Assembly: GCF_016862955.1 (NCBI RefSeq)
Contig: NZ_BONY01000015.1
Span: 62,001-126,000, forward strand
DNA from: Rhizocola hellebori
GTDB taxonomy: Bacteria; Actinomycetota; Actinomycetes; Mycobacteriales; Micromonosporaceae
Reading direction: 5' to 3'
DNA length: 64,000 nucleotides
Part shown: positions 16,656 through 63,896 of the stretch, in pieces
Layout: each line of letters begins with the position of its first letter
Numbering within the stretch: position 1 is the stretch's first letter
Translations under genes and position numbers: made by a program
Notes under the pieces: generated by a model
Seen by the model: the letters and a program-made list of their open reading frames with translations, nothing else
What the model was told of the DNA's origin: nothing
Database searches by the model: none

Positions 16656-16701
16656 GCTTATGTTCCTCCTAGAGACCATTGCCGAGTTTCGAAAGCGCGG
16701 A

Positions 16702-18446: not shown

Positions 18447-18657
18447 CGTGCCCGCCCACCATCCCGATGGCTTCCCCGGCGTGGACCAGAACCGTGTCGC
18501 CGACCCGGGCGTCCACCAGCGCCACGCTGACCTGCTGCACGGTGCCGGCAAGGCGCACCAGGGCCATTTCCGCGTCGTCCAGCCGCAGCACCTCGGCGGG
18601 CGCGGCATAGTCCGAACAGGTCACGCAGACGTCGTCGGGGCAGTCGGCGGCGGTCAT
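18439..18657 (-). CDS. HypC/HupF-like small protein, second copy
   Basis: A 72-residue member of the HypC chaperone family. The family cysteine sits in DVCVTCSD (positions 11 and 14) rather than at position 2 as in classical HypC. The rest (VLRLDDAEMALVRL, VGDTVLVHAGEAIGM) follows the OB-fold HypC pattern. It overlaps both flanking SIS genes (eight and four bases). With the canonical hypC at 10105-10416 the operon has two such proteins. This one may serve cofactor transfer specific to the group 1h large subunit or bind a different client. Confidence 0.85.
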   Translation of the reverse strand: MTAADCPDDVCVTCSDYAAPAEVLRLDDAEMALVRLAGTVQQVSVALVDARVGDTVLVHAGEAIGMVGGHDV

Positions 18658-42653: not shown

Positions 42654-43268
42654 ATGGCGGATCCGGGCACGCGGCCCGATCGTCCGGCCCGGGAGCGCGT
42701 GATGGAGGCGGCGTTGGACCTGTTCGCCGCGCACGGCGTCACCGGCACCTCACTGCAGATGATCGCCGACCACATGGGCGTCACCAAAGCCGCTGTGTAC
42801 CACCAATTCCACACCAAGGAAGACATCGTCCTGGCGGTGATCGGCCCGGCGCTGGAGACGCTGACCAAGGTCGCTGACGCGGCCGACCGGCAGCGCGCCC
42901 ACCGGCGGCGCCTGGAGTCCGCGCTCAACGGCATCGTCGATCTGATCATCAAGAATCGCCGGCTGACCGCCATCGTCCAGTTCGATCCCATGGTCGCCGA
43001 GCTGGTCCGCGCCCACCCGTCGCGCACCTCGATCGAGCGGATCCGCGGCATGTTCACCGGCGCCGATCCGGATGCCTCGGCTCTGGTCAGCGCCGCGATG
43101 GTCAGCGGTGGCCTGGTGATGGCCGGCATCGACCCGGCCCTCGACGGCCTCAGCGATGAAGAGCTGCGCCGCCACCTTTTCGACACCGCTTGGCGTTTGC
43201 TCAAACCGCGCACGGCCAGCTTGTCGGCTTCCGGTGGCCGAGTGGCCCAACCGACCGGGCGGGTCTAG
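42654..43268 (+). CDS. TetR family transcriptional regulator
   Basis: A 204-residue TetR protein. The N-terminal helix-turn-helix (about 12-60) reads VMEAALDLFAAHGVTGTSL and MGVTKAAVYHQFHTKEDI. The C-terminal domain is helical with a ligand-pocket pattern. It faces the KstD-like gene across 137 bases containing the doubled palindrome, so it probably represses that gene and itself, responding to a steroid or acyl derivative. GTG 42651 directly before the ATG is an alternative start. Confidence 0.88.
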   Translation: MADPGTRPDRPARERVMEAALDLFAAHGVTGTSLQMIADHMGVTKAAVYHQFHTKEDIVLAVIGPALETLTKVADAADRQRAHRRRLESALNGIVDLIIKNRRLTAIVQFDPMVAELVRAHPSRTSIERIRGMFTGADPDASALVSAAMVSGGLVMAGIDPALDGLSDEELRRHLFDTAWRLLKPRTASLSASGGRVAQPTGRV

Positions 43269-43309
43269 CATGCCATCATCCAGTCGACTTTGGACCCGGG
43301 AGACCGAGC

Positions 43310-43510
43310 ATGACCCAAGATCCGATGCAGGGCCTCGACGCGCAGGGCATCCGTGACGCTGCGGCCAACGTCGTGGAGCGCGACATCGACGGCGATGGGC
43401 AACCCGACAGCTTCCTGGTCGACGTCGACGGCGATGGCGAAATCGACATGGCGCTCTACGACGACGACGGCGACGGCGTGACCGACCGCGTAATCCGCTC
43501 CGCGGAGTAG
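43310..43510 (+). CDS. Small Asp/Gly-repeat protein, EF-hand-like
   Basis: A 66-residue acidic protein. Three copies of a DxDGDGxxD-like loop (DIDGDGQPD, DVDGDGEID, DDDGDGVTD) fill residues about 25-58. These match calcium-binding loops of EF-hand/dockerin or thrombospondin type-3 proteins. There is no signal peptide, so it acts in the cytoplasm or is bound to a partner. A GGGAG site precedes the ATG. It follows the TetR gene by 41 bases in the same direction. Calcium binding is predicted, and the role is unknown. Confidence 0.7.
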   Translation: MTQDPMQGLDAQGIRDAAANVVERDIDGDGQPDSFLVDVDGDGEIDMALYDDDGDGVTDRVIRSAE

Positions 43511-49082: not shown

Positions 49083-50474
49083 TCAGCTGGCGGTGCAGGT
49101 TGGGGTCGGGTTGGTGTTGGTGCTGTTGTTCCAGCTGGCGAGGAAGCCGAAGGTGATGTTCTGCCCCGCGTTGATGGTGCCGTTGTAATTCACGTTCGTC
49201 GCGGTCACGCTGGCACCGGTCTGCGGCGCGTTGGCGCCCCAGACCTGGGTGATGGCCTGGCCGTTGGCCCAGGTCCAGGTGACCCGCCAGCCGGTGATGT
49301 TCTGCGATCCGGCGGTGACCTTTATTTCGCCCTGGAAGCCGCTCGGCCACTGACCGATCCGGGTGTAGGTGGCGGTGCAGCTACGGGTGCCGCCGCTCGG
49401 GCTGGGGCTCGGGCTTGGCGACACGCTGGGGCTGGGCGACGGGCGGGGGCTCGGCGACACGCTGGGGCTGGGTGACGGCGAGCAGGTCGGGCAGTTGTAG
49501 ACGCTGGCCTCCCGGGCGGTGGCCCGGATGCCGTTGGTGCCGTTGAAGATCCGCTGACCCCAGGTGGTGAGCTGGCTGGGGTTGAAGCTGGTCGCCATGT
49601 CCAGGATCGGATCGGTGTTCCCGCTCCAGGACCAGCCGAGGTAGCCGAGCCCGCGGGCCTGCGCCTCGGACAGAATCGTCTCATGATCCACTTCGCCGGT
49701 GTTGAACCTCCACCCGAACTCGCCGATGACCAGCGGCCATCCCGCGGTCTGGAACCGGTTGAGGTAGTCAGTGATGCTGGCCGCGGTGTTGAACACGGCG
49801 TACATGTGGATCGACAGCACGGTGTTGCGCCTGGTGTCGGCGTTCAGAATCGTCTGTGCGTTGTCGCGCATGGTGAACTGCCAGTCCTGGCCCCAGTTCG
49901 GCGCGTCGACCATGAGCAGGTGCTCGAAGCCGTTGGTGCGCATCCGCTGGATAGCCGCGGTGGTGGCGGCGGTCCACTGGGCGGCATTGTTGTTGCCGAT
50001 CGGCTCGTTGCCGATGTTGATGACGACGTAATTCTCCTGACCGACCAGCGCGGCCTTCTGGCTGATCCAGTAGGTGACCGCCTCGTCGAGGCTGGCAGCC
50101 GCGCCGTCCTCGCCGAAACCGGTGGTGTCATGCACTTCCAGCACACAGATCAGCCGGTTCTGCTTGCACATCGTGATGACGGCGGCGACGTCGGTGGACG
50201 GGCCCCACCGCTTGCCGCTGCCCAGCACCACCCGCACGGTGTTGGCGCCGAGCGCTTTGATGTTGGCGAAGGAGCTGGTCTGGTTGGTGAACCAGATGTG
50301 GGGGTGGTTGACCCCTCGCATGATGAAGTTCTGGCCGTTGGCCTCGACAATGTTGCGGCCGCTGATATGCAGCCCGACGGCCGCGGCCGCGGGCTGGACA
50401 TTCACCAGGATGGACACGGCGGCAAGGGCGGCGGCCGCTAACGCGACGCCAAGAATGCTGGGACGACTTTTCAT
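49083..50474 (-). CDS. Secreted GH5 glycoside hydrolase (beta-mannanase-like) with CBM2
   Basis: A 463-residue exported enzyme. The signal peptide (about 1-32) is followed by a GH5 TIM barrel (about 33-330), a Pro-Ser linker (about 333-365) and a cellulose-binding CBM2 (about 368-463, with two terminal-region cysteines and surface Trp residues). The acid/base Glu157 is in NIGNEP and the nucleophile Glu252 in VIGEFGW. The opening GLHISGRNIVEANGQNF and MRGVNHPH resemble GH5 subfamily 8 mannanases; an endoglucanase is the alternative. A GAGGTAGG site precedes the ATG. A LacI regulator is divergent. Confidence 0.9.
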   Translation of the reverse strand: MKSRPSILGVALAAAALAAVSILVNVQPAAAAVGLHISGRNIVEANGQNFIMRGVNHPHIWFTNQTSSFANIKALGANTVRVVLGSGKRWGPSTDVAAVITMCKQNRLICVLEVHDTTGFGEDGAAASLDEAVTYWISQKAALVGQENYVVINIGNEPIGNNNAAQWTAATTAAIQRMRTNGFEHLLMVDAPNWGQDWQFTMRDNAQTILNADTRRNTVLSIHMYAVFNTAASITDYLNRFQTAGWPLVIGEFGWRFNTGEVDHETILSEAQARGLGYLGWSWSGNTDPILDMATSFNPSQLTTWGQRIFNGTNGIRATAREASVYNCPTCSPSPSPSVSPSPRPSPSPSVSPSPSPSPSGGTRSCTATYTRIGQWPSGFQGEIKVTAGSQNITGWRVTWTWANGQAITQVWGANAPQTGASVTATNVNYNGTINAGQNITFGFLASWNNSTNTNPTPTCTAS

Positions 50475-50678
50475 GACCTACCTCGGGAAGGGCCCCGGAA
50501 TTGGGGGCACGACGGACTCACCCCAGGCGTGAAGCTGCGACGATCACTGCCCTGATCTCGTGGGATGGGCGCAGTCCATTGGCGTTGTTACGTTTGCAAT
50601 TCCGGCTCCTGGTGGCACGGTACGCTTCACCATCGTCCAGCGCAATCGATGCACGTCGACCGGTCGGGAGGAGCGCGG

Positions 50679-51722
50679 ATGGCCAATGACGCGGGTGTGC
50701 GTCGCAGCAGCATGCGGGAAGTGGCGCGGGCGGCGGGCGTGTCGGTGTCGACGGTGGCCAATGTGCTCAGCCGGCCGGCGATCGTCGCGCCGGAAACCCG
50801 CCGCCGGGTCGAGCAGGCCATCCGCCACATGGGCTACGTGCGCCACGGTCCCGCCCGCCAGCTGCGCGGGCTGCCCAGCCCGATCGTCGGCAGCGTCATC
50901 CTCGATCTGGCCAACCCGTTCTTCGCCGAGCTCAACCGGGGCATCGAGGACCGGCTGGCCGAAGCGGGCTGCCTGGTCCTGGCCTGCAGCACCGATCTTC
51001 AGCCGGCCAAGGAGCGACAGGTCCTGGATCTGTTGGAGGAGCAGGCGGTGCGGGGCGTCATCATCGCCCCGATCGGGCCGGATCCGGCTGTCCTGCTGGA
51101 GATGAGCCGGCGCGGCACGCCGGTGGTCCTGGTCGATCGCCCGCGCGACGGGCTCGACCTGTGCGCGGTGGGGGTGGACGACGTGCTGGGCGGCAGGCTC
51201 GCCGCGGAACACCTCCTCTCCCTGGGCCATCGCCGGATCGTCTACCTGGGTGGGACTTTTGAGACCGGGACGGTCATCCGCCGCCGCGAGGGGGTGCGTC
51301 AGGCGATGCGGGCGGCCGGGCTCGATCCCGATGACCTCCTGATCGACCTGCGGTTGCCGATCCATCCGCCGCCGCTGGTGGAGGCCGCGGCCGCCGGGGT
51401 GCAGCAGATCCTCGCCGAGCGGCCGCTGCCCACGGCCGTGTTGTGTCTCAACGACACCGCGGCCCTCGGCGTTCTGCACGGGCTGGGTGTGGCGGGCGTG
51501 AAGGTGCCGCAGGACATCTCTGTCGTCGGCTACGACAACCTGGCCTTCGCGGCCGGGCTGGCGCCCGCGCTGACCACCGTGAACCAGCCGAAGTATCAGC
51601 TGGGCCGGGCCGCCGCCGATCTGCTGCTGGACGAGGCGCGGCCCGACCACGCCCACCGGGAGATCAGATTCCGGCCGTCGCTGGTGATCCGGGCCTCCAC
51701 CGCCCCACCGCGCCGCGCCTAG
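50679..51722 (+). CDS. LacI family transcriptional regulator
   Basis: A 347-residue LacI protein. The N-terminal helix-turn-helix (about 12-32, MREVARAAGVSVSTVANVLSR) and hinge helix precede a periplasmic-binding-protein-like sensor domain (about 65-345, with VGSVILDLANPFFAEL and VGYDNLAFAAGL). The ATG at 50679 has a GGAGGAG site. It is divergent from the GH5 gene across 204 bases, so it likely represses that hydrolase until an oligosaccharide binds. I see no convincing LacI-type palindrome in the gap; CCGGAATTG and its complement occur about 100 bases apart (50495 and 50597). Confidence 0.9.
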   Translation: MANDAGVRRSSMREVARAAGVSVSTVANVLSRPAIVAPETRRRVEQAIRHMGYVRHGPARQLRGLPSPIVGSVILDLANPFFAELNRGIEDRLAEAGCLVLACSTDLQPAKERQVLDLLEEQAVRGVIIAPIGPDPAVLLEMSRRGTPVVLVDRPRDGLDLCAVGVDDVLGGRLAAEHLLSLGHRRIVYLGGTFETGTVIRRREGVRQAMRAAGLDPDDLLIDLRLPIHPPPLVEAAAAGVQQILAERPLPTAVLCLNDTAALGVLHGLGVAGVKVPQDISVVGYDNLAFAAGLAPALTTVNQPKYQLGRAAADLLLDEARPDHAHREIRFRPSLVIRASTAPPRRA

Positions 51723-53230: not shown

Positions 53231-54250
53231 ATGCTATCGCCGCGGGTGCAGCGCAGCGTTCTCGTCACCGGCGCTACCGGAATCGTCGGGTCGGAGGTTT
53301 GCCGGTGGCTGCGCGAGCGACCCGAGCTGGCGGTCACCGCGGTAAGCGCGCGCGGCTCGGCCGAAGATGGCGTGCTGGCCTGGAGAATGGGTGTCGACGA
53401 GCCACCTGAGAGTCTGTGCCGGCATTGGGATGTCGTCGTGAACGCTGCCGCCAGCACGCGCTGGAGCATGACCGAGCAGGAGGCGCTGACCGCGAATGTG
53501 CGCAGTGTGGAAGCACTGCACCGGCTGGACCCGAGGCCCGGTTTGCTGGTGCATCTTTCGACCACGCATGTCATAGGGCTGCGCGGCAGTGTCGAGTCGC
53601 CTCGGCTGGCCGACTATCACAACTCCTATGAGTGGTCGAAGGCCGCGGCCGAGCGCTTTGTGCGCGGCCACTTCCCGGGCACGGTCATCCTTCGCTTTCC
53701 CATTGTGCTGGGTCGCCGGCGCGACGGCGAGATCGCTCGCTTCACCGGATTCTTCAAGCTGCTCAAGGCGATTGCGTCGGGGATGATGCCGGCCATCGTC
53801 GGTCTTCCCCATGCCTACCTGGAGATGGTTTCGGTCGACGACGTGGCGCGAGCCGTCACCCGGATAGTCACCGAGTCTCGCACCGATCTGACGATGGTGC
53901 TCGGCCGGGCCGAGCGGGCGCCTACCGTCGACCACGTATTCGAGTTGCTTTTCTCCGTCATCAACAGCTGGCGCGCCGGGCGCGGAGTCGCCGAGCTGGC
54001 CCGGCCGCCGCTGCTGCACCCGGACAGGTGGGACAGATTCTTCCTGCCTTTCGCGCGCCAGCACCTTTCCCCGGCGCAGCAACGGGTCATCGACGTGTTC
54101 AGCGAGTTCCGCCCCTACCTGGCGATGACCGAGCCGTTGCCGGCCAGCGAGGTCGTGGGAGAGGTGAGCTCGGTGATCCGGCGCACGGTGGCCTGCTGGG
54201 CACAGCGAAACCCAGCCGCGGCAAGCGCTATTCCGCAAGCTTGGTCGTGA
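53231..54250 (+). CDS. NAD(P)-dependent extended SDR (thioester-reductase-like)
   Basis: A 339-residue protein with the extended-SDR fold of the NAD-dependent epimerase / male-sterility (thioester reductase) group. The cofactor motif GATGIVG is at 14-20, the catalytic pair is YEWSK, and a substrate domain follows (about 190-339). In a cluster with an acyl-AMP ligase and an ACP, the most likely job is reduction of an acyl thioester to an aldehyde, or of a keto group. It is the first gene of the plus-strand operon; the acyl-AMP ligase starts seven bases later. Confidence 0.8.
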   Translation: MLSPRVQRSVLVTGATGIVGSEVCRWLRERPELAVTAVSARGSAEDGVLAWRMGVDEPPESLCRHWDVVVNAAASTRWSMTEQEALTANVRSVEALHRLDPRPGLLVHLSTTHVIGLRGSVESPRLADYHNSYEWSKAAAERFVRGHFPGTVILRFPIVLGRRRDGEIARFTGFFKLLKAIASGMMPAIVGLPHAYLEMVSVDDVARAVTRIVTESRTDLTMVLGRAERAPTVDHVFELLFSVINSWRAGRGVAELARPPLLHPDRWDRFFLPFARQHLSPAQQRVIDVFSEFRPYLAMTEPLPASEVVGEVSSVIRRTVACWAQRNPAAASAIPQAWS

Positions 54251-54257
54251 GTGGACT

Positions 54258-55868
54258 ATGCCGGGCATCCTCGATCTTCTGGCCGACGCCGCCACCGAGC
54301 GGGCCACGCTGCGGACCATCCCCGGGCCGGCCGAGCCGGTGACCCTGGCGCAGGTGTGGCGGCGCAGCGCGGATGCGGGCCGCTATCTGGCGCACCGGGC
54401 CGGTCGCGGCTCGGCTGTCGCCATGATGCTGACCACCTCGGCCGACTGTGTCACCGCGCTGATCGGCGGATGGCGGGCCGGGCTCTGCATCGCCTCGCTG
54501 CCAACGCCGGCGCGTGCTGTCCCGATGCCCGAATATGCGCAACAGATCGGGGCTGTGCTGCGGTTGATGGAAGCGAAGCTGCTGGTCGTCGACGACGAAG
54601 TCGCCTCGGCCATCCCGGAGTTGCCCGTGCCGGTGGTGACGTTCTCGCAAACCCTTTCCGGCTGGGGAGCAAAGACGGCCGACGAGGCCGGTTCGTTTGT
54701 TCAGTTCACCTCCGGCAGCACGTCGACGCCGAAGGGCGTGCGGCTGAGTATGGAAGCCATCGGCGAAAACGTCCGCGCGCTCCTCGATGGTGTGGCCAGC
54801 CCCGATCCCTTGGTGTCGTGTTCCTGGCTGCCGCTGTCGCACGACATGGGCCTGGTGGGCATGTTCCTCGCCGCGTGGGCCGGGCAGCGGCACGTCTCGC
54901 CCGGCGGGCTGGTCCTGATCCGGCCGGAGCGGTTTCTGCGCCGCCCCAGCACCTGGCTTTCGGCCTGTGCGCAGTTCGGTGCGACGGTGACCGCCGCCCC
55001 GAATTTCGGGCTGGAGCTGGCTTTGCGCGACCTGGCCGGCTGCGCCTCGCTTGACCTGTCCGCGCTGCGCGTATGCATTGTCGGAGCCGAGCCGGTGAGG
55101 GCGGAAACGTTGCGGCGCTTCGCCAAGGAGCTTGCGCCGTTGCGGTTCGACAGCGACGCCCTCTGTCCTGCCTACGGGATGGCCGAGGCGAGCCTGGCCG
55201 TGAGCGCCAAGCCGCCGGGCAAGCCTTGGAACAGCTGCCATGTCGACACCTCTGCGCTCGAAATGGGCCGCTGGCAGGAAAGCGGGCCGGGCGAGGGCAC
55301 GACGGAGCTGGTGGGGCTGGGGGCACCGCTGCCCGGCATCGAGGTCGCGGTCGGTGGGGAGCCGGCCGCGGTGGGCGAGGTTTTGGTTCGCGGCTCTTCC
55401 ATGTTTGACGGGTACCTGGGCGGCGCTGACCCCCGAGGAGCCGATCGCTGGTTCCCGACCAGGGATCTGGGGATGCTGCGAGACGGCGAGCTCTATGTCA
55501 CCGGGCGCGCCGACGAGGTGCTCCTGGTCGCGGGCCGCAACCTTTACCCGCACGACGTGGAGGAGGCCGCGGCGCGGGTCGGTGGTGTGCGACGGCATTG
55601 CACCGCTGCCGTCGCTTACGGTCCGTCCGACTACGCGATAGTCCTGGAACGGCCCGGCAAACTCGTCGCGGAGGAGGAGCTCAAGCGACTGTGCCGGGCC
55701 GTGCGTTTGGAAGTGGCCAAGCGGATCGGCATCGGTCCCGCGGCAGTGATCGTCATCGCGCGGGGGTCGTTCCCGCGCACCCCCAGCGGCAAGCCCCAGC
55801 GCAGGCGGCTGGCCGCCCAGGTCGCGTTGCCCGATGCGGCGCTCGAGCTGGCCATGCATTTCGGGTGA
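54258..55868 (+). CDS. Acyl-AMP ligase (FAAL-like, ANL superfamily)
   Basis: A 536-residue adenylate-forming enzyme. The ATP loop TSGSTSTPKG is at 151-160. YGMAEA (A5-like), a TRDLG segment (A7/A8-like) and a C-terminal PSGK lysine complete the motifs. The layout follows fatty acyl-AMP ligases that load an ACP directly rather than making a CoA ester. An ACP gene follows 40 bases downstream, supporting that use. The chain length or other acid cannot be deduced. It probably activates the starter acid of the cluster. Confidence 0.85.
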   Translation: MPGILDLLADAATERATLRTIPGPAEPVTLAQVWRRSADAGRYLAHRAGRGSAVAMMLTTSADCVTALIGGWRAGLCIASLPTPARAVPMPEYAQQIGAVLRLMEAKLLVVDDEVASAIPELPVPVVTFSQTLSGWGAKTADEAGSFVQFTSGSTSTPKGVRLSMEAIGENVRALLDGVASPDPLVSCSWLPLSHDMGLVGMFLAAWAGQRHVSPGGLVLIRPERFLRRPSTWLSACAQFGATVTAAPNFGLELALRDLAGCASLDLSALRVCIVGAEPVRAETLRRFAKELAPLRFDSDALCPAYGMAEASLAVSAKPPGKPWNSCHVDTSALEMGRWQESGPGEGTTELVGLGAPLPGIEVAVGGEPAAVGEVLVRGSSMFDGYLGGADPRGADRWFPTRDLGMLRDGELYVTGRADEVLLVAGRNLYPHDVEEAAARVGGVRRHCTAAVAYGPSDYAIVLERPGKLVAEEELKRLCRAVRLEVAKRIGIGPAAVIVIARGSFPRTPSGKPQRRRLAAQVALPDAALELAMHFG

Positions 55869-55908
55869 ACGCCCGCCAAGGTCGCGCACGAAAACGGGAG
55901 GGTGCAAA

Positions 55909-56154
55909 ATGGTGCAGGACACTATCTCTGATGTGGTCATCGAGATCCTGGCACGCCATACCGGCCTGGCGCCGGAAGAGATCACGCCGTCGCTGTATGT
56001 GCGCGACGACCTCGGCCTGGACTCGATCGACGCCGCCGAGATCATGCTGGTGCTGGAGAAGCGAACCGGCCGGCGATGCGAGGTGGACGAGGCGAGGACG
56101 ATAAACACGGTCTCGGACATCATCGCCACGATCTCTAGCGGGAGCACGGCATGA
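55909..56154 (+). CDS. Acyl carrier protein
   Basis: An 81-residue stand-alone acyl carrier protein. The phosphopantetheine site is Ser39 in LGLDSIDAAE. The GGGAGG ribosome site eight bases before 55909 fixes the start. It overlaps the nucleotidyltransferase gene by four bases. It should carry the acyl group activated by the upstream ligase for modification by the dehydrogenase, aminotransferase or reductase of the cluster. Confidence 0.92.
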   Translation: MVQDTISDVVIEILARHTGLAPEEITPSLYVRDDLGLDSIDAAEIMLVLEKRTGRRCEVDEARTINTVSDIIATISSGSTA

Positions 56155-57185
56155 TCACCGCCGTGGAGATGCACAGCCATCTCGAGCGCTTCCTCGCCGA
56201 TCGCGACATACCGATGACACGGCTCACCGATCATGTCGAGGAGGTCTTCGGCGTCCCCAGATTGGTGGTCGCGGCCGGATCGGTCATCCACGGCTTCGGT
56301 AACCCCGGCAGCGACGTCGATGTCCTCGTCCTGGTGGACAACCCCGGCGTCACAAATTTCCCACTGTCCTCGTACGACGGTCAGCAGGCCTTCGACGTGA
56401 CGTATCTGGACACCGCCTGGGCCCGCGAGGTCGGTGAGCAGATCGGCGACGGGTCGGCGCTGGCTTGCGTCCACGAGCCGGCGGGATGCGCGAAGACACA
56501 TGAAACCCTGGTCCAGTTTTCGCGTCTGCCGCTCGGTTTCGTCATCGAGGCCGAGCCGGAGTGGAACGCCTGGGTCTCGCGGATGCGGGGGCCGGCGCTC
56601 GGGCGCATCCTGCGGCGCTGGTGGCTGCTTCGGGCGCTTCGCGCCTGGACAGCGGCCCGCATCTTCGGGGCCGACAAACCCTGGCTGGCCGCACACCGCT
56701 ATTGCGACGCGGGCCTGGCGCTGCTCAACGCCCGGGTGACCGCGGCGGGCGAGGCGTATTTCGGGCCCAAGTGGGTGGCCGCGAAGCTGGCACGGCTCGA
56801 CGATCAGGCGGGCTTGGCGGTCTACGAGCGCCTCCTGGCCGTCCCGGGCGACGGCGCCGCGCTTCCATCCTATGTGGACAGATGCGAAGAGCTGCTGGAG
56901 AGCCTCTCCGCGATCGGGCCGGAATCGCCGCAGGTGCATCTGGTGGCCTCATATGCGCCGGGTGTCAACGTGTTCCGGGCCAACGGCAGGACACTGGTCA
57001 GCCGCTGGATGATGCGCGGCGTGGAGTTTGCGGGCCCGCTTCCGCAGGCGGCGATGTCGGCCGGCGGCCCGATCTGGGCGGGAAGGCTGACCGAGCTGCC
57101 GTCCTGGCTACGGGCTCTGCTGGTGGCCGACATGGCGTGGCTGGGCATCGCTGATTGGGGTGGACATGACAAGCCGGGTGATTGA
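56151..57185 (+). CDS. Nucleotidyltransferase-fold protein
   Basis: A 344-residue protein with a polymerase-beta-type nucleotidyltransferase core. The motif GSVIHGFGNPGSDVDVLVLVD (residues about 43-63) contains the GS and the DxD metal-binding aspartates, and a third acidic residue may be in FDVTYLD. The C-terminal two thirds is helical and unfamiliar. The family transfers AMP or another nucleotide to small molecules or proteins. Its coupling to an ACP gene (four-base overlap) is unusual; it could adenylylate the cluster product, protect the producer, or modify a protein. Confidence 0.8.
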   Translation: MITAVEMHSHLERFLADRDIPMTRLTDHVEEVFGVPRLVVAAGSVIHGFGNPGSDVDVLVLVDNPGVTNFPLSSYDGQQAFDVTYLDTAWAREVGEQIGDGSALACVHEPAGCAKTHETLVQFSRLPLGFVIEAEPEWNAWVSRMRGPALGRILRRWWLLRALRAWTAARIFGADKPWLAAHRYCDAGLALLNARVTAAGEAYFGPKWVAAKLARLDDQAGLAVYERLLAVPGDGAALPSYVDRCEELLESLSAIGPESPQVHLVASYAPGVNVFRANGRTLVSRWMMRGVEFAGPLPQAAMSAGGPIWAGRLTELPSWLRALLVADMAWLGIADWGGHDKPGD

Positions 57186-57702
57186 CGACTCGCGCCGCTG
57201 GGCCGCGTTTCACGGGGTGGGCACCTATCAGCTGCTGATGGAGATTCACGCGGCGGTGGAGGACACCCACGGCATGATCTTGCAGGGGCAGCCCCGGGTC
57301 GCCGCTTACTGTGCCCGGGACGCGGTGGTGTGCTGCCTCGCCGTGCGATCGCTGGCCACCCGCGGCGAGCTGTGGATGGAGGATCAGGACCCGTTCTACG
57401 ATCCGTTCAGCGACTGTGGCGAGGCGGAGCACGCGTTGCTGTCGCAGATAGTGGGCGGCCTGACCCGGGCCGGTGACGACGCGGAAGTCGACCTCGCCTA
57501 TCGGGGATTGGTGGACTTCGTCGGCGAGACCGAACGCCTGCTTGGGTTTTCGGCCTCGCCGGCTTCCATCCGTACCCCCCAGGGAATGTTCCCGGCGCTG
57601 CGAGTGGCCCGGGATCTGTTTCACGTCATGGAAACCGCCGGCCTGCCCCAGGTACTGCCAAAATCCTGGACGGCCACCGGGAAGCCGCCAGCAGAGGAGT
57701 AG
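57160..57702 (+). CDS. Hypothetical protein of acyl-ACP cluster
   Basis: A protein of 178-180 residues (GTG 57160 or ATG 57166), predicted mainly helical, with no signal peptide or membrane span. It has several Cys residues (AYCARDAVVCCL) and an acidic middle (WMEDQDPFYDPF). I do not recognise its family. Its 5' end overlaps the nucleotidyltransferase gene by about 20-26 bases, so it is translationally coupled and may be that enzyme's partner or substrate. Confidence 0.65.
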   Translation: MDMTSRVIDDSRRWAAFHGVGTYQLLMEIHAAVEDTHGMILQGQPRVAAYCARDAVVCCLAVRSLATRGELWMEDQDPFYDPFSDCGEAEHALLSQIVGGLTRAGDDAEVDLAYRGLVDFVGETERLLGFSASPASIRTPQGMFPALRVARDLFHVMETAGLPQVLPKSWTATGKPPAEE

Positions 57703-57707
57703 CCAGC

Positions 57708-58148
57708 ATGCCAACTGTTTCTACGGTCAGTCTGAGCAGCCAGCCCATCGACCGGGTCTGGCAGGAGGTGCTCGACATCGCCTCGTTCCCGTCCTACATG
57801 GACGAAGTGCGCGAAGTGGAGATCCTGCACCAGGAGCAGGACGTGCGCCGAAGCCGGTGGTCGATCCTGCTCAAAGGGTCGATCCTGGAGTGGGAGGAGG
57901 AGGAAAGGATCGACACCGAGAATCGTAAAATCACCTTCCACCAGATCGAAGGCGACCTCGCTTACTTCACCGGCTGGTGGCACGTCAGGCAGACCGATCG
58001 GGGCGTGTCCACTCAGATGCATGTCGAGTTCGACATCGGCATCCCGTTGCTCGCCGACATGCTCAACCCGGTGGCCGCGCGGGCGCTGGAAGAGAACGCG
58101 CAGAAGATACTGTCGCGCATCGATACCCGGGCTGGTTCACCGGCCTGA
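57708..58148 (+). CDS. SRPBCC (polyketide cyclase/START-like) protein
   Basis: A 146-residue helix-grip protein. The opening VSTVSLSSQPIDRVWQEVLDIASFPSYM and the later strand/helix order fit the polyketide cyclase/dehydrase (SRPBCC) family, whose cavity binds hydrophobic ligands. A GGAGTAG-type site precedes the ATG. It is the last gene of the plus-strand operon and overlaps the opposing acyl-CoA dehydrogenase gene by 12 bases. It may bind or cyclise the acyl intermediate. Confidence 0.8.
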   Translation: MPTVSTVSLSSQPIDRVWQEVLDIASFPSYMDEVREVEILHQEQDVRRSRWSILLKGSILEWEEEERIDTENRKITFHQIEGDLAYFTGWWHVRQTDRGVSTQMHVEFDIGIPLLADMLNPVAARALEENAQKILSRIDTRAGSPA

Positions 58149-59423
58149 CTCGTCCAGCTTTTCCAGCTGTGGTGCGGCCTCGTCGAGATCGAGCTGGGCC
58201 GGCAGGCCAAGCGCGACACGGCCCAGGTATTGCCGGGTGCTGGCGCGGGTCGGCGGGTGGAAGCGGATGGCCTGCGCGTCGCGCCACAACCGTTCCAGTG
58301 GCAGGGAACGGGAATAGGCCATCCCGCCACACGCCTCGATGGCGGCCGCGATCGCGTTGGGGACGACCTCCATCGCCTGCTGTTTGACCGCCAGGCACAT
58401 CGGGAGCAGCGCCTGCGGCGACCCGCCCTGGCCCATCAGTGCGGCCAGGCTGGCGCAAGCCGACTCCAGCGTCAGCAGCGCCCCGGTGTGGTCGCCGATC
58501 GCCCCCTGATAGCTGGGCAGCCGGTCGCGGGTCGCCGCAAGGTGGTTGATGCGGCTGCCGGCCAGGGTTGCCCGCGCGGAGTCCATGGCGGCCTGAGCCA
58601 CGCCGAGATAGCAGGCGGTGCTGGTGAGGCTGAACCAGATGACCCCGGCGGCGAGGATCTCGTCGTCGTCCTGGCCGGCTGGCGCGCGGTAGTAGATAAG
58701 CTCGTCGGGCACCAGACAATCGTCGAACCGCACGGTTTCCGACCCGGATCCGCGCATTCCCATGGCGTCCCAGGAGCGTTGCACGGTCAGCCCGGGCGCA
58801 TCGGTCGGCAGCAGCGCCACCAGAACCTCATCCTCGCCCTCGACCTGCATTTGAAAGCACACCAGATCCGCCTCCGCGGCCAGCGAACACGGCCGCTTCA
58901 GCCCGGAGAGCCGGAAACCGCCAGGGGATCGGCGTGCCCGCAGGGTGGACCGGCTCACCGAGCCGCCCAGATGGGGCTCGGCGAACGCTGACGCCACTAT
59001 CCGGCCCTGGCTCGCGATCGCCTCCAGCAGCAGCCACGACACGTCCGCGCGGCGCTTCCAGTGCTCGACCATCAGGCCTACCGAGAACAGGTGCATGTTG
59101 AGCGCGATCGCCAGCGCGGGATCGGCCGCGCCCAGGGCCCGCTGCGCCGCGCAGCACTGGGCCAGCGACGCTCCGCCGCCCAGAAGCTTGACCGGGACGG
59201 GCAGTCCCGGCCAGCCGAGCGCGCGCAACACCTCGAGGCTGTCGCGGCAGGGGCGGCCCTCGCTGTCGGCCGTGGCCGCGCCCGCCGCGACCGCGGCCAC
59301 GGCTTCGGGTGGCAGCAGACCGCTCACGTCGGGCCAGATGGCCTCGAAACAGGCGCTCAGACCGGCCGGCTCGACACGCGGCCGCGTGTCGTCGGAGATC
59401 AGTGCTGGTTTCATGATGCCCAT
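58137..59423 (-). CDS. Acyl-CoA dehydrogenase family protein
   Basis: A 428-residue flavoprotein with the helix-barrel-helix order of acyl-CoA dehydrogenases. The FAD/substrate segment AFAEPHLGGS and the barrel segment MGMRGSGSETVRFDDCLVP are conserved. The C-terminal helical domain includes IEACGGMAYSRSLPLERLWRDAQAIRF. In clusters with an acyl-AMP ligase and ACP these enzymes often desaturate or oxidise an ACP-bound acyl or aminoacyl chain. It follows the aminotransferase gene after four bases on the minus strand and converges with the SRPBCC gene. Confidence 0.85.
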   Translation of the reverse strand: MGIMKPALISDDTRPRVEPAGLSACFEAIWPDVSGLLPPEAVAAVAAGAATADSEGRPCRDSLEVLRALGWPGLPVPVKLLGGGASLAQCCAAQRALGAADPALAIALNMHLFSVGLMVEHWKRRADVSWLLLEAIASQGRIVASAFAEPHLGGSVSRSTLRARRSPGGFRLSGLKRPCSLAAEADLVCFQMQVEGEDEVLVALLPTDAPGLTVQRSWDAMGMRGSGSETVRFDDCLVPDELIYYRAPAGQDDDEILAAGVIWFSLTSTACYLGVAQAAMDSARATLAGSRINHLAATRDRLPSYQGAIGDHTGALLTLESACASLAALMGQGGSPQALLPMCLAVKQQAMEVVPNAIAAAIEACGGMAYSRSLPLERLWRDAQAIRFHPPTRASTRQYLGRVALGLPAQLDLDEAAPQLEKLDESGR

Positions 59424-59427
59424 CGGC

Positions 59428-60696
59428 TTAACCCGGCAATCCTTGACCGACCGCCGCGGCGGCCTCGGCTATCGCGCTGGCCAGCAGGTCCAATGCCAGA
59501 ACGACCTGGGTGGGGGTGGTGATGAGCGAAGGCAGCAGGCGCAGGGTCGTGGGCCGGCTCAGGCACGGCGAGATCAGCAATCCCCGTTGCAGCAGGTTCA
59601 CCATCACCTCGCCCGCCACCTGGGCGGAGACGAAATCGATGCCCCACAACAACCCCCGGCCGCGAACCTCGGTCACCAGGCCGGGCCGGGTGGCCTGAAT
59701 CTCGCGCAGGCCTTGTTCCAGCTGCCGCCCGATCCTGATGCCGGACTCGCTCAGCTCCTCCAGAGCCGACAGAGTCGCCTCCACCGCCGCCACACACAGC
59801 GGATGACCGGCGAAGGTGGCCGTGTGCAGGAAGGGGTTCTCTGCCAGCGGCCGATAGAAGTCATCTGTGCACAGCATCGCCGACAGCGGTACCACGCCGC
59901 CGCCGAGCGCCTTGCCCACAAGCAAAGCGTCGATCGGCAGACCGGCGTCGAGGGCCACCGAACGCGGCCCGCACCGGCGCAACCCGGTCTGGATCTCGTC
60001 GGCAATCACCATCGCGCCGTGCCGGCGAGCGTCGGTGCACCATTGCGCCAGCACCTGTGCGTCGATCGGCCTGATTCCGTGCTCGCCCTGGATCGGTTCG
60101 AAAACCACCGCGGCCACATCGCCTGCGGCGGCCTCCTTGGCCACCGCGCCGGGATCGTCCGGCCGGATGTGCGAAACGGCCGACAGCGCCTGCGCCGACC
60201 CGTGGCGGAACTGCTCGCTGTGGGTCAGCGCCAGCGCGCCCAGCGACTTGCCGTGGTAGCCGCCCTCCACCGCGATGATGCGCGGACGTCCGGTGCCCAG
60301 CCGGGCCAGCTTGGTCGCCGCCTCCACGGCGTCGGTGCCGTTGAGGCCGAAGTAGACCCGGGGCAGCGCATCGTCAAAGTAGCCGGAAAGGCGCGCCGCC
60401 GCCGACGACAGCGTCGGGTTCCCTAGCGATCGGGTGGCGGTCGGCTGCACGTCCAGTTGCGCCCGCACCGCCTGGAGCACCAGCGGATGCCGGTGACCAA
60501 TGAGCGCGACCGCGTACGAACCGAAGTCGAGCAGGCGGCGGCCGTCGGAAAGGCTTATCCACACGCCATCCGCGGCCACCTCCACCGCGCCGCGCCCGGC
60601 CAGCTTCGCGGCCATCGCCAGCGAGGGTGGCAGATGCCTGCGCATCTGCCGGAAGACCTGTTCCGCCTCAACACCCAGGACAATGTCCGCTGTCAT
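59428..60696 (-). CDS. Class III PLP-dependent aminotransferase
   Basis: A 422-residue aminotransferase of the ornithine/GABA/acetylornithine class. The PLP-binding Lys262 lies in LLVGKALGGG. The cofactor segment YFGLNGTDAVEAA and ADEIQTG (Asp contacting the PLP ring nitrogen) are present. The ATG at 60696 has an AAGGAG site and overlaps the permease stop by four bases; the open frame further upstream is not coding. It could aminate an aldehyde made by the reductase at 53231-54250 or a 3-keto acyl-ACP. Confidence 0.9.
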   Translation of the reverse strand: MTADIVLGVEAEQVFRQMRRHLPPSLAMAAKLAGRGAVEVAADGVWISLSDGRRLLDFGSYAVALIGHRHPLVLQAVRAQLDVQPTATRSLGNPTLSSAAARLSGYFDDALPRVYFGLNGTDAVEAATKLARLGTGRPRIIAVEGGYHGKSLGALALTHSEQFRHGSAQALSAVSHIRPDDPGAVAKEAAAGDVAAVVFEPIQGEHGIRPIDAQVLAQWCTDARRHGAMVIADEIQTGLRRCGPRSVALDAGLPIDALLVGKALGGGVVPLSAMLCTDDFYRPLAENPFLHTATFAGHPLCVAAVEATLSALEELSESGIRIGRQLEQGLREIQATRPGLVTEVRGRGLLWGIDFVSAQVAGEVMVNLLQRGLLISPCLSRPTTLRLLPSLITTPTQVVLALDLLASAIAEAAAAVGQGLPG

Positions 60697-61472
60697 CCCC
60701 ACGACTCCTTGCCGCGATCCGGCCGCAGCAGCAGCGCACCCGCTGTCCCCGCGGCGAGCGCCACGCCGCCAAGGACGGCGACGCTGGGCCACACCTGACT
60801 CAGGCCGCTTCCCTCCACGATGACCTTCTGGCAACCCAGCACCGCCCAGTAGGACGGTGCCGCCGGGGCCAGCGGCTGCAGCCAGGTGGGCAGAAGCGCC
60901 ACCGGGACAAGGGCTCCGCCCAGCCCGGCGAAGACCAGGGTCAGAATGTTGTTGACGGCGTTGAACTGCGCGACGGTCGGACACAGCGCTGTCACCAGCA
61001 GGCTGACGGCGACCACATTGGCCCCGAAGACCGCGAGCACCGCTGCCAGCGCCACGACCGATCCAGCCACGTGCATGCCGAAGACGGCGACGCCCACCGC
61101 GAATATCGCGGCCAGCTGGGTGAGGACGAGCAGTAGCGGTACCAGCAGCTTGCCCGCCACCAGAATGGGCACCGGAATCGGCAGGGTGCGCGTGCGCTGC
61201 CAGGTGCGCCAGCCGAAGTCGCGGAAGAACGGCAACCCGAACTCGCCGCCCATGAACATCGCGAACATGATGGCAAAGCCGGGCACAGCCTGCTCCGAGC
61301 CGTTGCCGCCGTAAAGGCCGGTCAGCTGCAGGATCTGCCGGTAGGTCGGCGTGAGCACGAGCACCAGCACCACCGGCATGACGGTGAGCATGAAGGCCCG
61401 CACCAGATCGCGCCGCTGCAGCCGCCACTCGTGGCGGACCACGCAGCCGAGCGTGCCGAATGTCTCAGCCAC
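60693..61472 (-). CDS. ABC-2 type exporter permease
   Basis: A 259-residue membrane protein with six predicted spans and the cytoplasmic N-terminus typical of ABC-2 exporters (VVRHEWRLQRRDLVRAF). It overlaps the ATPase gene by eight bases and the aminotransferase gene by four. With the ATPase it should export the product made by the surrounding enzymes. Confidence 0.85.
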   Translation of the reverse strand: MAETFGTLGCVVRHEWRLQRRDLVRAFMLTVMPVVLVLVLTPTYRQILQLTGLYGGNGSEQAVPGFAIMFAMFMGGEFGLPFFRDFGWRTWQRTRTLPIPVPILVAGKLLVPLLLVLTQLAAIFAVGVAVFGMHVAGSVVALAAVLAVFGANVVAVSLLVTALCPTVAQFNAVNNILTLVFAGLGGALVPVALLPTWLQPLAPAAPSYWAVLGCQKVIVEGSGLSQVWPSVAVLGGVALAAGTAGALLLRPDRGKESWG

Positions 61473-62346
61473 GAACCAGCTCCTTCTCCGCGGTCACCCG
61501 GAAGAAGACATCCTCCAAACTGGACCGATGAACCGTGATCCCGGCGAGGGCGCGCCCCTGCCCGTGCAGACCGGCGATGATGCCGGGCAGCTCGCCGTCG
61601 GGATCGGCGACCGGTATCCGCACGCTCGGCGGTGAGCCATCGCTGAAGGCAATCTCCACCGTGGTACCACTGAAATCTCGAACGAGCGAATCGATGTCAC
61701 CGCATGCGGCCACCCGCCCACGATGGAGGATCACGGTGTAGGCGCCCAGTTGCTCGATCTCGGTCAGATAGTGGGTGGAATAGAGCACAGCGGTGCCGGC
61801 CGAGGCAAGCGTGCCAACGTAATCCAGCAGAGCTCGGCGGCTCGGCGGATCCACGCCCACCGTCGGCTCGTCGAGCATCAGCAGGGGAGGGCGGCCGACC
61901 ATGGCCATCGCGCAGTGCAACCGTCGCTGCTCGCCGCCGGACAGCAAGTGGGCCGGGCGATCGGCAAGCCGATCCAGCCCCATCGCCTCCAGCACCTCTC
62001 GCACGGCCAGGCGGCGCTGCCGCCCACCGACCCCGGCCAAAGCGGCCCAGCCCACCAGGTTCTCGGTGACCGTCAGTGGGGGATAGATGGCAAGCTCCTG
62101 CGGGGATACCCCCATCATCGCGCTGGTGGCCCTGGCGTTGCCCCGCACGTCGAGGCCACCGACCAGAATGCTGCCCCGGCTCGGTTTGACGAGACCGGCC
62201 ACGGCATTGACCAAAGTGGACTTTCCGGCGCCGTTGCGGCCCAGCAGCCCGACCACCTGGCCCCGGCCGACTACCAGGGACACCCCGAGCAGCGCTGGAT
62301 GAGTTCCATAGTGGACCTCGAGGTCGGCTATCTGAAGCATCGACAC
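61465..62346 (-). CDS. ABC-2 type exporter ATPase
   Basis: A 293-residue ATPase with Walker A GRNGAGKST, signature LLSGGEQRRLHCAMAM and Walker B LLMLDEPTVGVDP, plus a C-terminal extension of about 75 residues as in DrrA-like proteins. GTG 62346 and an ATG two codons later are both possible starts. It is the first gene of the minus-strand operon (exporter, aminotransferase, dehydrogenase). The 69 bases upstream hold no obvious operator. Confidence 0.88.
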   Translation of the reverse strand: MSMLQIADLEVHYGTHPALLGVSLVVGRGQVVGLLGRNGAGKSTLVNAVAGLVKPSRGSILVGGLDVRGNARATSAMMGVSPQELAIYPPLTVTENLVGWAALAGVGGRQRRLAVREVLEAMGLDRLADRPAHLLSGGEQRRLHCAMAMVGRPPLLMLDEPTVGVDPPSRRALLDYVGTLASAGTAVLYSTHYLTEIEQLGAYTVILHRGRVAACGDIDSLVRDFSGTTVEIAFSDGSPPSVRIPVADPDGELPGIIAGLHGQGRALAGITVHRSSLEDVFFRVTAEKELVRG

Positions 62347-62415: not shown

Positions 62416-63177
62416 TTAACGCCGCTGGGCGAGATCGTCCAGCCAGTCGCGGCTGGCGCGGCTGACCCGGGCCGGTACCCCAAGGGAGTCAAGCAGTTGC
62501 GCCGCCGCCTCCATCTCGTGCGATCGGCGCACGGCGTGGACATGGGAGCCGGTGACCAGCCGCTCGACGGTGGCGGCATTGGCGCGGGTCAGCTCCTCAG
62601 CGATGTTGGCGCTGAGCCAGTCATGCAGGCCCGCCGCCTGTGCCGCTTCGAGCGCCTCGACGACGGCCGCTGCGAGACCCTTGAAGAAGACGCTGCGCAA
62701 CAGTTTGTGGGTGGCGGCCGCGCCCACCGGGCCCTCGATGACCTCCACATTGCCGCCCAGCTGCCGCATGGTGAGCGCGAATCGTTGCGCCGCAGGGCCG
62801 CTGACCGTCATCGGGGTGTGCAGCCCGCGCGGCGGCACCGGCGCCATCAACGCGACGTCGGCGACGAGCAGGTGACCGGCGGCGTCCTGGACGGCCTGTT
62901 TCACCGCGGGCGCGGCGGTGTTGAGGTCGGCCCAGATGGTGCCCGGGGCGCAGCCGGGCAGGCCCTGGGCGAGGGCGTCCAGGGCGTCGGCCGCGCTGTT
63001 GACGCTGAGCACGAGATCCGCGCCCCGGCAGGCCTGTGCGGCGTCGGCGGCGTCACGAACCGCGCCGGTCGCCGTGACCCGCGGGTCGTAGCCGTTGACC
63101 ACGGCACCGGCCTGGGCGAGCCCGGCGGCGATGAGGCTGCCGGCCTCGCCGAGACCCAGCACGGCGACGGTGGTCAC
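62416..63177 (-). CDS. NAD(P)-dependent dehydrogenase with DUF1932 domain
   Basis: A 253-residue member of the 6-phosphogluconate/3-hydroxyisobutyrate dehydrogenase superfamily. The Rossmann motif GLGEAG is at about 8-13; the usual third Gly is followed by an acidic Glu rather than Met. The conserved Lys is in GAAATHKLLRSV. The C-terminal half matches DUF1932 (HEMEAAAQLLDSLGVP). It overlaps the GntR gene by four bases, so it is under the same control. Its substrate is unknown; relatives act on hydroxy acids in aromatic or sugar catabolism. Confidence 0.82.
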   Translation of the reverse strand: MTTVAVLGLGEAGSLIAAGLAQAGAVVNGYDPRVTATGAVRDAADAAQACRGADLVLSVNSAADALDALAQGLPGCAPGTIWADLNTAAPAVKQAVQDAAGHLLVADVALMAPVPPRGLHTPMTVSGPAAQRFALTMRQLGGNVEVIEGPVGAAATHKLLRSVFFKGLAAAVVEALEAAQAAGLHDWLSANIAEELTRANAATVERLVTGSHVHAVRRSHEMEAAAQLLDSLGVPARVSRASRDWLDDLAQRR

Positions 63178-63896
63178 GCCAGCCCGATCTCGTCCAGGTT
63201 GTGCAAAGCCTCGATGACGCTGGCGATGTGCTCGCGCATGGCCAGCTCGGCCTCCGCGGCATCGCGTGCCCGGATCGCTTCGATGATGCGCTCGTGCTGG
63301 GGCAACGAGATGGCGGGCCGGCCCGGCAGCAGCGACAGCGCGAACTGCCGGCGCACCAGCTGCCCCCGCATGGTCTCGATGAGGGTGTCCGCGGTGCGAT
63401 GGCCAGCGATGGCGCGGATCAGCGCGTGCAAACGCTGGTTGAGATCGCTGTAGCGGCGGAACTCGCCCGCGGTCACGGCTCTGCGCATCAGCAGCCCGAT
63501 CTCGTCGAGCTCGATCGCCTGGTCCTCGGTGACCCGGGCGGCCGCCTTGGCCGCGACCAGACCCTCCAGGACCATGCGCACCTCGGTGATCTCGACCGCC
63601 TCGGCCAGCGAGATCTTTCGCACGTGGGCGCCTTTGTTGCGCTGAACCTCGACGAGCCCTTCGGCGGCGAGATCCTGCAACGCCGTGCGGACAATGAACC
63701 GGCTGACCCCAAGCCGCTCACACAGCGAGGCCTCCACCAGTCTTTCGCCGGGCAGATAGGCGCCATCGAGAATCGCCGCGCGCAGGACATCACGTGCTGT
63801 CGCGGACTCTCGGGCCGACTGTGGAGACATCTCCTGTTTCTCGGCGGGCATCTTCTCTCTCGCGGTCAGAGCTGTTGGCAGGCCAAATGTCACCAC
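63174..63896 (-). CDS. GntR family regulator, FCD (FadR-like) subgroup
   Basis: A 240-residue regulator. The winged helix (about 35-95) has LPGERLVEASLCERLGVSRFIVRTAL and the C-terminal FCD domain (about 105-235) is all-helical, with Asp and His residues positioned to bind metal and a carboxylate ligand. GTG 63896 opens the frame; ATGs at 63851 and 63830 are alternatives. It is the first gene of a two-gene operon with the DUF1932 dehydrogenase. Matching half-sites upstream suggest control of itself and of a divergent gene beyond the right edge. Confidence 0.88.
   Translation of the reverse strand: MVTFGLPTALTAREKMPAEKQEMSPQSARESATARDVLRAAILDGAYLPGERLVEASLCERLGVSRFIVRTALQDLAAEGLVEVQRNKGAHVRKISLAEAVEITEVRMVLEGLVAAKAAARVTEDQAIELDEIGLLMRRAVTAGEFRRYSDLNQRLHALIRAIAGHRTADTLIETMRGQLVRRQFALSLLPGRPAISLPQHERIIEAIRARDAAEAELAMREHIASVIEALHNLDEIGLA

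Follow-up and report, generated by a model that had tools for sequence, protein, structure and literature searches.

An apparently undescribed small-molecule biosynthetic cassette recurs across actinobacterial genomes

Introduction

A gene cluster at positions 53231-62346 of a 64,000-nucleotide stretch of the Rhizocola hellebori genome (10.77 Mb; assembly GCF_016862955.1, contig NZ_BONY01000015.1) finds its closest known logic, by analogy, in the amine branches of the fragin, azodyrecin and tambjamine pathways. The whole stretch (C15:62001-126000) is hereinafter designated the window, and positions are given within it. The cluster consists of two tight operons that meet tail to tail. The plus-strand operon contains six genes, encoding a short-chain dehydrogenase/reductase (SDR), a fatty acyl-AMP ligase (FAAL)-type protein, an acyl carrier protein (ACP), a nucleotidyltransferase (NTase), a 174-aa protein and an SRPBCC protein. 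The minus-strand operon contains four genes, encoding the ATPase and the ABC-2 permease of an ATP-binding cassette (ABC) exporter, a class III aminotransferase and a protein of the acyl-CoA dehydrogenase (ACAD) fold.

Published systems are cited here from excerpts of the respective papers. The fragin/valdiazen (ham) system of Burkholderia resembles the cluster in having a carrier-bound substrate, reductase release to an aldehyde, the aminotransferase HamG, the N-oxygenase HamC and the polyketide cyclase/dehydrase HamE (PMC5878181). However, ham has an A-T-R non-ribosomal peptide synthetase (NRPS), an AurF-type N-oxygenase, a heme-oxygenase-like protein and a condensation domain, and the excerpt names no nucleotidyltransferase (PMC5878181). 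Neither an AurF-type N-oxygenase nor an A-T-R NRPS was found in the scanned proteins of our cluster, in which the ANL ligase, ACP and SDR are separate genes. In the proposed routes to azodyrecin and valanimycin, an aldehyde is converted by a pyridoxal phosphate (PLP)-dependent transaminase to an amine, which is N-hydroxylated by a two-component flavoenzyme (PMC9379638). These clusters carry homologues of VlmA, VlmO and VlmB, none of which was seen at the window, whereas the azodyrecin proposal as excerpted is without an NTase, an SRPBCC protein or a 174-aa protein, all three of which are found at the window (PMC9379638). The tail of tambjamine YP1 likewise starts from a fatty acid on an ACP, which becomes a fatty amine when the thioester is reduced and the product transaminated; in contrast to our cluster, TamA is an ANL-ACP fusion, TamH is a transaminase-reductase fusion with an AAR-like reductase, an MBC pathway runs alongside, and no NTase occurs in the excerpt (PMC9594044).

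Nucleotide conjugation is known from other pathways. Phosphonate pathways use cytidylyl activation (PMC6697681), and FrbG N-hydroxylates a cytidine monophosphate (CMP) conjugate (PMC7347517). The NTase of our cluster has no counterpart in the excerpted accounts of the tambjamine, azodyrecin, fragin, AlnG, FrbG and phosphonate precedents (PMC9594044, PMC9379638, PMC5878181, PMC7347517, PMC6697681), and the term nucleotidyltransferase is absent from the excerpted parts of a review of N-N bond formation (PMC11705231). A first-pass annotation of the window had stated that no characterised cluster with this gene set was known. For the whole set this holds in the literature found, a search of open-licence papers having returned no match, but ham, ady and tam share the amine logic.

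Recurrence of the gene set

The cluster was delineated by our own gene calling and by Pfam and NCBIfam scans, which covered 19 proteins of the 21 genes called at 40861-63851, the exceptions being two short ones at 42702-43510; before 40861, the analysis consisted of gene calling. Every gene family of the two facing operons that the first-pass annotation had described was found in its place, although the exporter comprises two genes and the acyl-CoA dehydrogenase is misnamed. The absence of a polyketide synthase (PKS) or NRPS module was also borne out, with no PKS or NRPS domain among the 19 scanned proteins. In both operons, neighbouring genes overlap by at most 8 bp, and the gaps between them measure at most 40 bp on the plus strand and 4 bp on the minus strand; the 3' ends of the two operons overlap by 12 bp (58137-58148).

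An eight-gene core, consisting of the SDR, aminotransferase, ACAD-fold flavoenzyme, SRPBCC, NTase, 174-aa protein, ABC ATPase and permease, was sought in other genomes through the NTase. Contig scans gave no relatives with a one-protein query and one with a two-protein query; whole-genome searches did better. Matches were found in 9 of 300 genomes of the family and 17 of 394 genomes of the class (the window genome being counted in both), and in 28 of 392 and 15 of 160 genomes of two genera. We read 34 neighbourhoods of at most 20 kb each around NTase matches (L021-L024, L043-L059 and L113-L125). These cover six of the eight foreign genomes of the family set (all but G049 and G085), 14 of the 16 foreign genomes of the class set (all but G627 and G404) together with a second place in the window genome (L056), and eight of the 15 genomes of the 160-genome set. 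From the 392-genome set, ten of the 28 genomes were read, namely all eight above 300 bits and two of the 20 weaker ones (G399, G531, G675, G779, G821, G847, G849, G1007, G1009 and G1034, with two of the three places in G1009). Genes were called by us and labelled by phmmer and blastp against the proteins of the window and L021-L024, later also of L048-L050 and L059; the score thresholds for labels were set by ourselves, and a subset of labels was checked by Pfam and NCBIfam.

The cassette was found in 17 of the 34 neighbourhoods. Eight others contain a different cluster type, designated L022-type, and nine contain neither (L023, L051-L057 and L124). Besides the window, the 17 cassette loci contain the NTase and the 174-aa protein in all cases, the SDR, SRPBCC, aminotransferase and permease in 16 each, and the ACAD and ATPase in 15 each; all eight core genes exceed the thresholds in 14. 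The ATPase of L120 is below the threshold of this final count, though it was labelled in an earlier reading of the neighbourhood, and L118 is interrupted by a contig end. In ten of the 17 loci, every labelled core gene lies on one strand, with at least seven of the eight labelled (L049, L059, L114, L117, L119, L120, L121, L122, L123 and L125). Identity to the window proteins reaches 66% in the ACAD, 61% in the aminotransferase, 56% in SRPBCC, 45% in the SDR and 37% in the NTase.

The converse search started from the ACAD profile (E<=1e-60) in 392 genomes of one genus, which we take to be the same draw as above from the equal counts and shared handles. It returned nine matches in eight genomes, the same eight that have an NTase match above 300 bits. 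This NTase threshold was picked after the list had been viewed, and the next match (176 bits) is the second place in G1009, itself a cassette locus (L119). Eight of the nine ACAD matches lie inside a cassette locus; the ninth lies on a separate contig of G821, whose cassette is L118, the locus cut by the contig end. The hypergeometric probability of the co-occurrence of NTase and ACAD is 8e-17 when kinship between genomes is ignored.

Because the same set recurs in distant genomes, it is not a chance assembly, and because the core recurs in 17 other loci, its genes belong together, consistent with the earlier proposal that they function as one set. A single odd cluster thus becomes a recurring, testable cassette in several genera, apparently undescribed so far and devoted to a small molecule.

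The ACAD-fold protein resembles nitrososynthases

The ACAD-fold protein (58137-59423, minus strand) had been assigned an oxidation as a dehydrogenase. When its profile was compared with solved structures, 50 entries matched at E<=1e-10. The top two, 4kcf/3m9v (149 bits), are titled FAD-dependent oxidoreductase and are presumably KijD3; DnmZ (4zxv, 119 bits) and the nitrososynthase 3mxl (110 bits) also match. Dibenzothiophene monooxygenases score at most 84 bits, and named CoA dehydrogenases 80.5 bits (7xp7) or, for the rest of the listed 50, at most 72. By profile score, the nearest relatives of this ACAD-fold protein are nitrososynthase-type entries, as expected of a class D flavin N-oxygenase. 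The resemblance consists in the shared fold and the top profile matches, whereas the relation to the window flavoenzyme is distant, and nitrososynthases act on nucleotide amino sugars.

The catalytic glutamate of a desaturating ACAD occupies either the EGT motif or the isovaleryl-CoA-dehydrogenase position, and both alignment columns were checked on the genome's own ACADs (the 12 best of 21 PF00441 matches, one short fragment being dropped). Eight of these 11 full-length proteins keep EGT, one has a glutamate at the second position, and two have DGP. In all 16 core members, HPP replaces the EGT glutamate and WF the other, so that a catalytic glutamate is found at neither position. Because of this loss and because nitrososynthase-type entries stand on top, the protein is most likely an N-oxygenase rather than a dehydrogenase, and the oxidation assigned to it earlier is not supported.

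The NTase and its 174-aa partner

The NTase (56151-57185, plus strand) is of the Pol-beta type. Its match to Pfam NTP_transf_2 (21.0 bits) is only at the cut-off of 21, but the window protein has the motifs GSxxxGFGNxxSDxD, a third Asp and GExYxxxKW, and GSxxxGxGNxxSDxD, the third Asp and KW are conserved in 18 of 18 NTases. Judging from this intact Asp triad, nucleotidyl transfer, as previously suggested, is plausible.

The 174-aa protein (57178-57702, plus strand) is predicted to be helical and has no Pfam or NCBIfam match. In profile comparisons, one longer protein matches the NTase with its N-terminal half (probability 99.4, E 3.7e-21) and the 174-aa protein with its C-terminal end (probability 94.1, E 1.3e-7). 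This long NTase is encoded beside FAAL, ACP and thioester-reductase-like SDR genes in L022, L024 and L058, and in four genomes it shares one reading frame of 1107-1169 aa with FAAL (L044 7828-11277, L045 5081-8590, L046 7681-11004 and L047 7814-11137). In the L046 fusion, the one checked with Pfam, AMP-binding and NTP_transf_2 both exceed their cut-offs. Since both window proteins match this long NTase, one at either end, they are the split form of a protein that is elsewhere joined to FAAL, with the 174-aa protein as the split-off C-terminal domain. The predicted structure of the 174-aa protein (pLDDT 60.5) gave fold matches that include NTase C-terminal domains, HEPN and LinB (E 0.49), none of them significant (best E 0.27); the NTase C-terminal and HEPN matches are at most a hint that the protein is possibly HEPN-like.

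Genes for nucleotide or phosphorus enzymes lie beside NTase relatives, namely deaminase-like genes in L121, a phosphoenolpyruvate (PEP) mutase operon in L114 and a nucleoside diphosphate kinase (NDK) gene in L022. In two cluster families, ACP and thioester-reductase-like genes accompany the pair, and one of these families also has it fused to FAAL.

Three places outside both families deserve mention. At L056 (9687-10729, on C107 of the window genome), the NTase has 258 aa and belongs to a different branch; a PqqD protein gene adjoins it, and an NDK-like gene lies nearby. In L023 (6555-9977), an NTase relative has neighbours that, inspected by eye, resemble a poly(A)-polymerase head protein, a protein with a condensation domain and a small carrier protein. 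In L124 (7851-10356), an NTase and a relative of the 174-aa protein are encoded in another cluster, along with proteins that weakly resemble FAAL, ACAD and carrier proteins; the remaining core genes are unlabelled.

Remaining enzymes and the exporter

The extended SDR (53231-54250, plus strand; Pfam NAD_binding_4, 68.8 bits) has the thioester reductase family TIGR01746 as its best NCBIfam match (50.3 bits), and the motifs TGxxGxxG and YEWSK are kept in 17 of 17 SDRs. The FAAL-type protein (54258-55868, plus strand; Pfam AMP-binding, 133.7 bits) has ten best NCBIfam matches of which eight, none over its cut-off, are named as AMP or ACP ligases (MbtM, a fatty acid--ACP ligase, with 278 bits, PRK09192, PRK05850, PRK12476, two FadD32, FadD21 and FadD28). 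The ACP (55909-56154, plus strand; Pfam PP-binding, 39.6 bits) has its serine in LGLDSID. The SRPBCC protein (57708-58148, plus strand) is of the polyketide cyclase/lipid-binding type (Pfam Polyketide_cyc, 67.8 bits).

The aminotransferase (59428-60696, minus strand; Pfam Aminotran_3, 232.9 bits) keeps the PLP lysine in the alignment, and its nearest solved structure is a putrescine aminotransferase (328 bits). A longer frame of 666 aa (59428-61428) was rejected as a false extension, since a start at 61428 crosses the permease gene in the wrong frame; the true start is 60696. The exporter comprises the ABC-2 permease (60693-61472, minus strand; Pfam ABC2_membrane, 65 bits) and a DrrA-type ATPase (61465-62340 or 62346, minus strand; Pfam ABC_tran, 107 bits; NCBIfam TIGR01188 drrA, 205.6 bits, below the cut-off of 312).

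The core occurs in different contexts

Among the cassette loci, FAAL and ACP genes accompany the core in the window alone. In eight of the 17 others, ketoacyl synthase (KAS) and ACP genes lie beside the core (L021, L059, L119-L123 and L125). Genes for myo-inositol-phosphate synthase (MIPS)-like, HAD, S-adenosylmethionine (SAM) synthetase and methyltransferase proteins lie beside it in four (L048, L113, L115 and L116); a carbocyclic-nucleoside reading of these four was considered, and a literature search gave nothing decisive. L114 (5232-16950) is a phosphonate version, in which genes for PEP mutase, a thiamine pyrophosphate (TPP) decarboxylase, an iron-type alcohol dehydrogenase (Fe-ADH) and TauD are contiguous with the core. 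In L121, an operon facing the KAS-type cassette (13684-18956) encodes a methyltransferase, a cytidine-deaminase domain protein, whose domain is above its NCBIfam cut-off, two dCTP-deaminase-like proteins and a weakly HprK-like protein.

The eight L022-type clusters (L022, L024, L043-L047 and L058) resemble the window in the long NTase and the thioester-reductase-like SDR (8/8 each) and in FAAL and ACP (7/8 each), neither of the latter two having been found in L043. They differ in that the aminotransferase and ACAD are unlabelled, and in genes of their own, of the pyruvate phosphate dikinase (PPDK)/PEP-utiliser and UbiA types in all eight and of the NDK and AfsA types in seven. Around the fusions of L044-L047, labelled by similarity to L022 and L024, a PPDK/PEP-utiliser-like gene precedes the fusion gene, and ACP, thioester-reductase-like SDR, NDK-like, AfsA-like and UbiA-like genes follow it. 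These four are a second, unexplained cluster family.

Proposed pathway and alternatives

We propose that actinobacteria share a modular biosynthetic cassette, of which the locus is one version. Its conserved core may convert a thioester-bound carboxylic acid to an N-oxygenated primary amine for export; taken as a whole, this explanation has in our judgement an even chance of being right. In the window, FAAL would activate a fatty acid and load it onto the ACP, the SDR would release the acyl-ACP as an aldehyde, and the class III aminotransferase would convert the aldehyde to an amine. Using reduced flavin supplied by a separate reductase, the ACAD-fold flavoenzyme could then oxidise the nitrogen to the hydroxylamine, oxime, nitroso or nitro level. 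SRPBCC may bind or rearrange the oxidised intermediate, the NTase and its 174-aa partner may nucleotidylate the intermediate or the product, and the ABC pair would export the product. More generally, the SDR of the core would reduce a thioester or handle a related substrate. All of these chemical steps, and their order, we infer. The earlier suggestion that the acid is loaded, released reductively as an aldehyde and then aminated follows an order known from TamA and TamH of the tambjamine pathway in the excerpt cited (PMC9594044). If the chemistry is true, the cassette would be a marker for mining N-oxygenated amines, and would represent a route from fatty acid to N-hydroxy-amine built from separate enzymes. 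The NTase and the 174-aa protein may even form a new carrier-linked device that nucleotidylates a fatty, phosphonate or cyclitol-derived amine or N-hydroxy-amine, giving an undescribed class of nucleotidylated N-oxygenated amines whose acyl supply (FAAL/ACP, KAS/ACP or phosphonate) is swapped between species; we regard this extension as speculative and unlikely.

The proposed pathway is favoured by the recurrence of the core and the converse search, by the lost glutamates and nitrososynthase-type matches of the ACAD, by the split and fused forms of the NTase, by the nucleotide and phosphorus enzyme genes beside NTase relatives, and by the likeness of the aminotransferase to putrescine aminotransferase. 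Several observations weigh against it. FAAL is labelled in none of the 17 other cassette loci, and ACP and KAS are both unlabelled in nine (including L118, cut by the contig end), so that thioester reduction is uncertain there. Within the 40 kb read at L021, which holds the NTase, 174-aa protein, SDR, ACP, KAS and SRPBCC, relatives of the window ACAD, of its aminotransferase and of its ABC genes are all missing. The SDR, at 50-60 bits, fails the curated TIGR01746 cut-off of 213.35, and the best NCBIfam match of the FAAL-type protein, PRK07768 (343 bits, below cut-off), is named a long-chain-fatty-acid--CoA ligase. The best NCBIfam match of the ACAD-fold protein is FadE16, a family named dehydrogenase (101 bits against a cut-off of 600), and the third and fourth structural entries, 5gj7/5z8t (147 bits), are titled acyl-CoA dehydrogenase type 2 domain protein. 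The gene for a flavin reductase partner, which a two-component monooxygenase would need, adjoins the cassette in L021 and lies one gene from the SDR in L119, which speaks for the pathway; it is unlabelled in the other 15 cassette loci and absent among the scanned window proteins. An AlphaFold model of the NTase from a two-row alignment was poor (pLDDT 39.5) and was discarded.

The dehydrogenase names FadE16 and 5gj7/5z8t would fit a route in the order of the first-pass annotation, in which the ACAD desaturates an ACP-bound chain, reductive release and amination then give an unsaturated fatty amine, as in the logic of the tambjamine tail, and this amine is nucleotidylated. The prolyl-carrier dehydrogenase 4irn (55 bits) also has the ACAD fold, and TamA and TamH set a precedent for turning acid to amine on a carrier in the excerpt of PMC9594044. 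Such a route is nevertheless very unlikely, with both catalytic glutamate positions lost in 16 of 16 members and with the nitrososynthase-type top entries at 149 bits against at most 80.5 bits (7xp7) for named CoA dehydrogenases. The nitrososynthase relationship itself could be read differently, given their nucleotide-bound substrates: the NTase might conjugate the substrate first, and the SDR, aminotransferase and N-oxygenase might act on the conjugate, as in FR-900098 biosynthesis. The contiguity of the core with a phosphonate operon in L114 and the nine loci with ACP unlabelled are in line with such tethering, and the excerpts describe a CMP conjugate as the substrate of FrbG (PMC7347517) and assign cytidylyltransferase activity to FrbH (PMC6697681). 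However, the window operon carries FAAL and ACP, and the NTase has no Pfam match to the FrbH family (MobA-like, PF12804) or to that of Fom1 and PhpF (PF01467), families as given in the excerpt of PMC6697681; we consider tethering decidedly unlikely.

Aminoglycoside and lincosamide nucleotidyltransferases confer resistance by nucleotidylation, and the NTase and the 174-aa protein could similarly serve self-resistance, nucleotidylating a toxic product inside the cell rather than taking a biosynthetic step. The GS..SDxD motif of the NTase is kept, the fold matches of the 174-aa protein include LinB (not significant), and 16 of the 17 loci have an ABC permease gene together with the pair. Against this, the FAAL fusion in L044-L047 points to work on the acyl or carrier side, and NTase relatives also lie beside NDK and deaminase-like genes; a resistance role is thus unlikely in our view. 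Finally, the core might build an N-N bond of the diazeniumdiolate or azoxy type with the help of SRPBCC, as proposed for HamE. In the excerpts, ham shares with the core a carrier with a reductase, an aminotransferase, an N-oxygenase and a polyketide cyclase (PMC5878181), HamE is hypothesised to aid N-N formation (PMC11705231), and the ACAD-like AlnG of alanosine biosynthesis is proposed for N-hydroxylation (PMC7347517). Yet no DUF4260, AurF or heme-oxygenase-type Pfam match occurs in the 19 scanned window proteins, and no source of a second nitrogen was seen, making N-N chemistry highly improbable. Azoxy chemistry was the first idea after the structure matches of the ACAD and was dropped because VlmA-, VlmO- and VlmB-type genes were not seen; for valanimycin-type azoxy genes, the scanned cluster proteins gave no match to DUF4260 or similar Pfam families, VlmA, VlmO and VlmB not having been used as queries.

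Borders and neighbouring genes

A cytochrome P450 gene (51858-53129, plus strand; Pfam p450, 269 bits) lies 101 bp upstream of the SDR gene, and the first-pass annotation had suggested that it may take part. Its membership in the cluster is uncertain: a P450 of this kind is labelled in none of the 17 other cassette loci, and it is therefore at most a local addition outside the core. Pfam assigns the genes further upstream to a LacI regulator and a GH5-CBM2 cellulase.

Downstream of the cluster, a DUF1932/NAD-binding protein (62416-63177) is followed by a GntR regulator (63174-63851), and the downstream border of the cluster probably lies at about 62346. The plus-strand run beyond the GntR regulator, with PIG-L, RraA, PrpF, glyoxalase and NMT1-type importer genes, looks catabolic. 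On the opposite side, just upstream of the P450, the GH5-CBM2 cellulase gene adjoins the LacI regulator gene at 49083-51722.

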